Shown in pieces: positions 48,134 through 52,723 of a stretch of DNA of 64,000 bases. This stretch comes from Bacteroidota bacterium. Lineage in GTDB: Bacteria > Bacteroidota > Rhodothermia > Rhodothermales > UBA10348. Below the pieces are notes generated by a model that was given only the letters and a program-made list of their open reading frames with translations, made no database searches and was not told the DNA's origin. The position numbers and the translations under genes were made by a program. Where the stretch lies: the NCBI GenBank assembly GCA_022567305.1, contig JADFHF010000009.1, positions 1 through 64,000 on the forward strand. Direction: 5' to 3'. Position 1 is the stretch's first letter. Every line of letters starts with the position of its first letter.

Positions 48134-50704
48134 CTACGCTTCCGATTCGTCGTTTTGTTCTTTGCCATTCTCCTGCGCGTTTCCCTCGTCGAGGATTACA
48201 CGAGTGACATCAGCAATGGCGTCATCACGTTTCAGACTAATAACTCGTACGCCTTGCGTGTTCCGTCCCATGGATCGGATTCCAGAGATCTTAAAGCGAA
48301 TCATGATCCCTTTTTCGGTGGATATCATGAGGTCGTCGGATTCGAGAACGCCTTTAATGGCCACCAGAGGACCGGTGCGGCTCGTGGCCTTCATCGTAAT
48401 GATGCCTTTTCCGCCGCGCCCTTGTCGTCGGTAGTCGTCGATCTTCGATCGTTTCCCGTATCCGTTCGCGCTTACGACTAAAACTTCTCGGTCTCCGTCG
48501 TTCATCACAATCATACCTACAACCGAGTCGGATTCTGAGAGCCTGATTCCCCGAACTCCGCGCGTATTTCGACCCATTGGACGCGCGTTCTCTTCTGCGA
48601 AACGAATGGCCTTGCCGTTGGTGGCTCCCAGTAGGATGTCGGCATTTCCATCTGTCATATGCGCTTCGATGAGCTGGTCATCCTCGTTGATCGAAATAGC
48701 GATGATTCCATCCACGCGTGGGCGGGAAAACGCTTCCAGTTTCGTCTTCTTGACCTGGCCGCGACGGGTCGCCATCATAACGTAATGGGCATTCAGGAAT
48801 TCGGGGTCTTCGAAATCCGACTTGGTAATATTCAGAACGGCCCGGAGACGATCTGATGCCGCAATCTGAATAAGGTTGCGGATCGAGCGGCCTTTGGCGG
48901 TACGTCCACCCTCAGGTATCTCAAATACGCGTAACCAGTAGCACCGGCCATGGTCAGTGAAAAACAGGAGATAATCGTGGTTCCTCGAGACAAACAGATG
49001 TTCGATGAAATCTTCATCTCGCATACCTGAGCCGCGGACGCCAACGCCACCTCGGCCCTGCTGTCGATATTCTGTCGTAATCGTTCGTTTGATCAGGCCC
49101 TGTCTTGAGACGGTAACGACAACCTGTTCATCGTCAATCAAATCCTCAATAATGATATCACCGCCGCCCGTGTAATCGATGGCAGTTCTGCGTTCATCAC
49201 CGTATTTGTCCCGCATCTCAAGGAGTTCATCCTGGATGATCTTCATCCTCAGATCCTTATCCCCCAAGATCGTTTGTAAGCGCTTAATCTCTTTCAGGAC
49301 GGCTTCAAACTCCTCTTCAATTTTCTTTCGCTCCAACCCAGTAAGACGGCTCAAGCGTAGATCCAAAATGGCCTTCGCCTGGATCTCCGTAAGCGTGAAA
49401 AGCGATTTTCCATCTGTGGGAAGTCCGAGCCGCTCCAGCTGATCTGTAGAGAGGTGAGAGGGTAGAACGCCCGCAATCAAGTTTTCCTGGGCTACGGTTG
49501 TATCCGAAGAATTTCGGATAATGGTGATCACTGCATCCAGGTGATCCAGTGCAACGGTCAATCCTTCCAGAATATGTGCACGCTGTTCCGCTTTGCGCAG
49601 CTCGAACTCCGTACGTCGCTGTACAACCTCATGCCGATGATCGACATAATGGTGGATGATCTCCTTCAGATTAAGGGTGCGCGGTCGGCCGTTAACCAGC
49701 GCCACCATATTTACACCAAACGTCCACTGCAACTGAGTGAACTTGTACAGTTGATTTTCTACAACGAGAGGGACAGCATCCTTCTTCAGTTCTATCACGA
49801 TTCGCATGCCATCACGGTCGCTCTCGTCGCGAAGATCAGATATGCCGGCGATTTTTTTGTCGTGTGCCAGAGAAGCGATTTTCTCCAGGAGCGTACTCTT
49901 ATTGACCTGGTACGGAATTTCGTTGACGATCAGTGCCATCCGCCCCTTCCGGATCTCCTCTACTTCGATCTTCGCCCGCATCACAACGCGGCCTCTGCCC
50001 AGGTGATAAGCAGCTTTCACACCTGTATGGCCATAGATGATTCCACCCGTCGGAAAATCCGGAGCTGGAACGTGCTCCATCAACTCATCAATTTCGATCT
50101 CGTTGTTTTGTATGTAGGCGACAACTGCGTTGATGACTTCGCGAATATTGTGGGGAGGAATTTTTGTGGCCATTCCCACCGCAATTCCGTCCGAACCATT
50201 AATGAGCAGGTTAGGAATGGCCGCAGGTAACACTTGCGGCTCCTGAAGGGAACCGTCGAAATTTTCCTGGAAATCGACCGTCTCCTTCGCAAGATCGTTC
50301 AGGATGTCCTCCGAAAGGCGGGTCATTCGAGCTTCTGTGTACCGCATTGCGGCCGCAGAATCTCCATCTATAGATCCGAAATTCCCCTGTCCATCCACAA
50401 GCGGATAGCGCATGGAAAAATCCTGGGCCATGCGCACCATGGTATCGTAGATAGCTGAATCCCCGTGAGGGTGATACTTTCCAAGAACCTCGCCCACGAC
50501 CGTAGCGCTCTTTTTGTAGGGACCTCCTGCGCTGAGACTCAACTGACTCATTCCGTAGAGCACCCTTCGGTGCACAGGTTTAAGTCCGTCTCTGACATCA
50601 GGCAGGGCTCTGCCAACAATTACCGACATCGAATAGTCGATGTACGAGGATTTCATTTCCTCCTCGATGTTTATCGGGACGATTCGTTCGATATTGTTTT
50701 CCAT
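48134..50704 (-). CDS. gyrA: DNA gyrase subunit A
   Basis: 856 residues, normal length. Gyrase A cuts and religates DNA to introduce negative supercoils with GyrB. The N-terminus [40 protein letters not shown] (start [19 protein letters not shown]) is standard. The quinolone-determining region keeps Ser and Asp ([14 protein letters not shown]), a drug-susceptible type. The catalytic Tyr is in [10 protein letters not shown]. The C-terminal pinwheel carries the GyrA-box RRQGRGGKG, which marks it as gyrase rather than topoisomerase IV, plus an earlier QQGRGGVG element. The 473-bp upstream region is long for a promoter. Confidence 0.98.
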
Positions 50705-51177: not shown

Positions 51178-51651
51178 CTAGAAGCTGAATTGGTCGGCGT
51201 AACGGACCGCCATTTCATCACCGATGGCCTCCAGATACGCTTGATCCACGGTGTCAAAGGCAGAAGCGTGGTTTGAGTCAACATCCAGAACGGCCACCGT
51301 ACCACCGCCCGATGAAACGATCGGAATGACGATTTCAGACCGTGATCTGCTCCCCGAAAACTGGGTCGCCTCTGGGACGAGCTGGGTTTTCTTTGTTCGC
51401 GCAGCGGCACCGCAAACCCCGTTCGCGAAAGGCATGTCGATTCAACCATCTCCGCCTTGATACGGACCCACTTGTAGCCAGTCGGGGCGTATCGTCCGAT
51501 AGGATCCGGTCCAATGGTAATAATCGAAAGCACTGTGGAGTTCACAGACCATAGTGGCCATGGCCGCCACCCAGTCGGTAGAATCGTCAATCAGGAGCCA
51601 AATACGCTCGGTCAGTCCCATATATTTTGCTCGCTTTTCATCGTGCTCCAC
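51178..51651 (-). pseudogene. GAF-domain (free-Met-(R)-sulfoxide reductase-like) gene with in-frame TGA
   Basis: One minus-strand frame from the GTG at 51651 (or the ATG at 51621) to 51178 encodes about 157 residues resembling fRMsr/YebR GAF proteins. The first part reads WVAAMATMVCELHSAFDYYH and WTGSYRTIRPDWLQVGPYQG. Codon 70 is TGA (51444-51442). The frame then continues without shift: PFANGVCGAAARTKKTQL, SRSEIVIPI, VAVLDVDSNHASAFD. Aligning VGPYQG and GVCG with E. coli YebR places the TGA exactly at conserved Cys84; the Cys94 counterpart is kept (GVCG), and the catalytic Cys118 loop is shortened and lost. A point mutation is the simplest reading. Selenocysteine is a remote alternative. A downstream restart at the ATG 51435 would give only half a domain. 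Confidence 0.72.
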
Positions 51652-51874: not shown

Positions 51875-52207
51875 ATGAAAACAGTGTTTATCCCGGCTAC
51901 AAAAACAGTTGATCTCATCGCGAAGACTCTCAACGAAGATTTTCCCGGAACCGTCTTCGCAGTTCGGCTCGAAGATCCCGTAAATGTGATCACCGATATT
52001 CGTGGCGTAGACGTCATTTGGGTAGATGGACCCAATCGCGATGAGGTAGAAACGGCTTTGGAGCGTTTTCAGGGGATGACGTGGGATCCTAGAACGGGTG
52101 TGTTAGAGGGTCGATCTCATTTTGTTGTAGACGAAGAAGGGAATCTTACCCGCGTCTTTTACAACGTAGACTACATCTTTTGCGACGGTCCTGTCTCGGC
52201 GGCGTAG
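51875..52207 (+). CDS. Small protein resembling large polyvalent protein-associated domain 29 (LPD29)
   Basis: 110 residues. AAGGA precedes the ATG with no spacer; the GTG three codons later (51884) would have better spacing and may be the true start. The sequence has the pattern I associate with LPD29: a helix LIAKTLNEDFPGTVFAVRL, a strand with VDVIWVDGPNRDEVETALERF (core VIWVDGPNRDEVETALERF), then FQGMTWDP and a final VFYNVDYIFCDG. LPD29 normally occurs inside large polyvalent proteins of phages and conjugative elements, or as small standalone proteins. No mobile genes flank it. It is divergent from the interrupted GAF gene across 223 bp. The assignment rests on motif memory and the function is unknown. 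Confidence 0.6.
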   Translation: MKTVFIPATKTVDLIAKTLNEDFPGTVFAVRLEDPVNVITDIRGVDVIWVDGPNRDEVETALERFQGMTWDPRTGVLEGRSHFVVDEEGNLTRVFYNVDYIFCDGPVSAA

Positions 52208-52219
52208 TCATCAGACGAT

Positions 52220-52723
52220 TTAATCGTCCAGCAGACACTGCATAATCGCGACGTCCCTCCACGTTCCGTCTACACGACCCACTTCTTCTTGAACCCCCAC
52301 GAGTGTGAATCCGCAGCTCCTGTGGAATGCAATGCTCGAATCGTTGTTCGCCCAGATTTTTGCTACGACATGGTGGTAGCCGACCGACTGAGCGAATTCC
52401 AAAAGACGAGACTGCAACAGTCTTCCGAAACCCTGACGAGTACTCGCTCGGAATAGATAAACAGACGTTTCGCAGGCCACTGCATACCCTCGTCGATCGC
52501 TATACGCTTTTACAATTCCCCATCCCCGCAAACCGGAATCCGTGTACACGACGAATACGGCCTCCTTGGGCCCGAGCGATTCAAGCAGACGCAGAATATC
52601 CTCTTCCGAGACAGGCTCTGTATCCATGGTGCTGTCTCGAGCAAGTATAGACTCTGAATAAATCCGAGCGATGACCGGAGCATCGTCAGTGACGGCGGCG
52701 CGGACCAACGGAAATTCAGACAT
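52220..52723 (-). CDS. GNAT N-acetyltransferase, phosphinothricin acetyltransferase-like
   Basis: 167 residues, typical of PAT/YncA-like GNAT enzymes that acetylate amino groups with acetyl-CoA. Evidence: VRAAVTDDAPVIARIYSESI at the N-terminus, CETSVYLFRASTRQGFGRLL with the acetyl-CoA pyrophosphate loop (RQGFGR), HVVAKIWANNDSSIAFHRSCGF (core WANNDSSIAFHRSCGF), and VDGTWRDVAIMQ. The substrate could be methionine sulfoximine or phosphinothricin analogues or a cell metabolite. It starts 21 bp after the subtilase stop on the same strand. It may belong to a leftward run with the subtilase and the small conserved protein. Confidence 0.88.
   Translation of the reverse strand: MSEFPLVRAAVTDDAPVIARIYSESILARDSTMDTEPVSEEDILRLLESLGPKEAVFVVYTDSGLRGWGIVKAYSDRRGYAVACETSVYLFRASTRQGFGRLLQSRLLEFAQSVGYHHVVAKIWANNDSSIAFHRSCGFTLVGVQEEVGRVDGTWRDVAIMQCLLDD

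Follow-up and report, generated by a model that had tools for sequence, protein, structure and literature searches.

The minus-strand frame 51651-51178 of the window (the whole stretch of 64,000 nucleotides analysed) is best explained as a recently pseudogenised gene for free-methionine-R-sulfoxide reductase (fRMsr), and not as a selenoprotein gene; a probability of about 0.9 is given to this reading. A gene intact in relatives carries here two lesions, a nonsense codon and a deletion of the catalytic segment. The features discussed are the following:

51178..51651, minus strand: fRMsr (YebR-like GAF) pseudogene, with GAF_2 and PDB fRMsr matches and one internal TGA
51442..51444, minus strand: in-frame TGA at the position of Cys84 (resolving Cys), TGC or TGT in 34/34 aligned relatives
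51412..51414, minus strand: TGC of GVCG, Cys94 position, placed by sequence and alignment
51349..51360, minus strand: 5-codon in-frame deletion (HIACS in relatives), alignment columns 116-120, junction approximate
51396..51429, minus strand: hairpin proposed as SECIS, no stabler than shuffles
48134..50704, minus strand: gyrA, conserved neighbour on the same strand, marking the ancestral locus

Family and locus of the frame

The frame counts 158 codons, terminal TAG included, when the start is set at GTG 51651, which is not certain. As stated in the initial annotation, it is open on both sides of the TGA, the sole stop before the TAG, and homology to the family is found on both sides, with VGPYQG ahead and GVCG behind. 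When the TGA is taken as Cys, GAF_2 is scored above the Pfam cut-off. Similarity to characterised fRMsr extends along the whole length (phmmer against 3mmh, the Neisseria meningitidis Methionine-R-sulfoxide reductase, E 3.7e-21), and E. coli YebR (1vhm) is matched at 9e-13. The frame shares with these GAF-fold proteins the motifs GPYQG, GVCG, SEIV and VLDVDS. Judged by its sequence, it encodes an fRMsr, a YebR-like GAF protein. Homologues were matched in 42/60 of the genomes searched, its own genome counted. Identity to relatives is at most 58%, and the best matches cover the 157-aa query from about residue 2 to residue 153.

The frame and gyrA are close together and share a strand, an arrangement also seen in the relatives G012, G005, G002, G017, G007, G013 and G020, and in several relatives the intact gene is found about 1-6 kb upstream of gyrA in the same orientation; the remnant therefore occupies the ancestral locus. 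Flanking DNA had no match in the plasmid collection searched. The divergent neighbour (51875-52207, plus strand) codes for 110 aa and contains an LPD29 domain (PF18847, 33.4 bits). The domain takes its name from the large polyvalent proteins of mobile elements; here it stands alone, in a chromosomal setting. Positions 52220-52723 (minus strand) encode a GNAT acetyltransferase resembling the ArsN1 arsinothricin N-acetyltransferase, below the cut-off (118.9 vs 170 bits).

The remnant is the only fRMsr match in its genome, and no second copy was found there. Matches are missing from 15 of the 44 genomes of the order that are at least 90% complete, mostly whole families. Many genomes in the order do without the gene, which is therefore dispensable there. 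Contig C75 carries MsrA next to an MsrB-like gene (107.9 bits, just below the cut-off of 113); since both are kept, repair of protein methionine sulfoxide is probably unaffected. A partial second MsrA match sits at a contig edge (C106:8-259); the MsrA on C75 is intact.

Lesions in the active site

The TGA is codon 70. The initial annotation had placed it at Cys84, and indeed phmmer aligns it with the first Cys of the Neisseria protein; from this column the GVCG and IACS cysteines lie at +10 and +34, which gives 84/94/118, a numbering obtained by counting along the printed 3mmh alignment. In fRMsr, Cys84 is reportedly the resolving and Cys118 the catalytic cysteine, an assignment attributed to work of Gruez et al. 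in 2010. The homologues, whose residue at this position could have been Cys, Sec or stop, have Cys only, encoded by TGC or TGT, in 34/34 aligned relatives (29 genomes of the order plus five additional homologues from a scan of GTDB r220 contigs, all with Cys at the TGA column). Elsewhere in the phylum (395 genomes), the matches listed include no TGA-bearing homologue; a few distant homologues in the same listing show one TAA. That a nonsense codon should arise at a Cys by chance is not remarkable, because in three close relatives 13-19 codons per gene lie one step from TGA, and these include every one of the 3-5 Cys codons.

The HIACS columns are absent from this sequence alone (approximate junction in the protein FSG|SRSRSEIV), and the Cys within them, Cys118, is invariant in 34/34 relatives. 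The loss of the catalytic loop, noticed earlier, thus corresponds to an in-frame gap of 5 residues. Cys94 is the only one of the three cysteines of the active-site region still present. Unlike fRMsr/YebR, then, the frame has TGA at Cys84, lacks 5 residues including Cys118, and keeps Cys94 alone. Bacterial fRMsr forms a disulfide between catalytic and resolving cysteines (PMC6211008). With both gone here, even readthrough of the TGA would yield a reductase without activity.

It is improbable that the TGA is an error of sequencing or assembly, with a Cys codon there in reality and translation of the full-length frame. A single base change would be enough, and the frame stays open before and after the TGA; but the 15-nt deletion is no base-call error and alone removes Cys118, and internal stops are absent from the other scored matches in the genome. 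Since the Cys118 segment is deleted, correction of the TGA alone would not restore a normal gene, contrary to what had been supposed. The earlier preference for a recent change of Cys to stop is upheld by the Cys codons of the homologues and by the core Sec machinery not being found (see below), but the accompanying notion of an otherwise intact gene does not survive the deletion.

Extent and probable timing of decay

Of 54 highly conserved columns, 14 are changed in this sequence, the highest count among those compared; the next has 8 such changes, and most have 0-1. Decay has not gone far, because no frameshift is found in 474 nt and the part downstream of the TGA retains 22/33 of its conserved columns. 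The ratio of fRMsr to gyrA on the terminal branch, measured on the gyrA topology and for whole-branch rates only, is 3.9 vs 3.1 tree-wide and falls within the range of intact relatives. The fRMsr rate on this branch is not clearly raised relative to gyrA. With a ratio near the tree-wide one, ordinary constraint would have acted along most of the branch, in keeping with a recent loss. Old decay with a raised rate on this branch was rejected on the same ratio.

Phase, GAF signature and branch length would also suit a non-catalytic, ligand-binding GAF protein derived from fRMsr, made by readthrough of the UGA or in two pieces with a restart at ATG 51435. This is slightly less probable than a base error. 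Against it, TGA is a regular stop in the window, where it terminates 12 other long ORFs; no UCA anticodon was found among the 42 tRNA matches of the genome, of which ARAGORN typed all except one; and a break in the middle of so small a domain would be unlikely to give two folding pieces. The untyped tRNA match is weak (contig C107:150502-150578, L098, 30.2 bits), and by eye has a tRNA-like stem and a loop CTGCGGG. A reassigned or suppressed UGA was rejected, TGA being the normal stop of the 12 ORFs and no UCA tRNA having been found.

Under the preferred reading of a recent pseudogene, the ancestor would have been a normal free-methionine-R-sulfoxide reductase gene. A 15-nt in-frame deletion would have taken the catalytic segment in this lineage, and one substitution would have turned the Cys84 codon into TGA. 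Translation is expected to end after about 69 residues, leaving a truncated and presumably inactive piece. Orthologous position, single copy, an otherwise readable frame and an extra inactivating deletion are all as in bacterial pseudogenes with a single nonsense codon; there is no notable difference from these, and the stop here happens to hit a cysteine.

The rejected reading of selenocysteine at Cys84

A Sec-containing fRMsr is the least credible of the alternatives weighed, far less so than a base error. It is suggested by a TGA exactly in the column of a redox-active cysteine, as in bacterial selenoproteins in which Sec replaces a redox Cys and homologues have Cys, and by a hairpin that can be drawn 12-13 nt downstream. 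Unlike in those selenoproteins, the core Sec machinery was not found, the putative SECIS is no better than chance, and the active-site partner is deleted.

SelA, SelB, SelD and tRNA-Sec, expected together in a selenoprotein-encoding genome, were searched for in the own genome (3.76 Mb, 115 contigs, 95.6% complete). The initial annotation had noted the absence of sel genes from the window only; the genome-wide search for selA, selB, selC and selD did not find the core set either. For selA there was no match, while the E. coli control scored positive, and across the order SelA exceeds the cut-off in none of 114 genomes. All selB matches are below cut-off; the best spans positions 1-263 of 581 only, a partial match of the kind that EF-Tu and other translational GTPases would give. 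The best selD match is likewise below cut-off (76.5 vs 125 bits). Every tRNA-Sec match falls short, the best by 0.1 bit; ARAGORN assigns the eight for which loci are given to Leu, Ser, Tyr or Phe, and two others coincide with tRNAs typed Leu and Met.

The arms of the hairpin drawn in the initial annotation, TTCGCG (51429-51424) and CGCGAA (51401-51396), are present, but shuffled sequence folds more stably on average: z is +1.15 and +1.42, and 178 and 188 out of 200 shuffles match or surpass the hairpin. Rfam has no match anywhere in the window. A 2026 review of prokaryotic selenoproteins does not name fRMsr (PMC13188914). Selenocysteine was rejected on machinery, SECIS and partner cysteine, and is excluded within the limits of a 95.6%-complete genome: for it to hold, the part absent from the assembly would have to contain all of selA, selB, selC and selD.

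The importance of this remnant is small beyond annotation. It offers a clear case of a selenoprotein look-alike created by a nonsense mutation at a cysteine, a case settled by the lesion at the partner cysteine together with a genome-wide check of the machinery.
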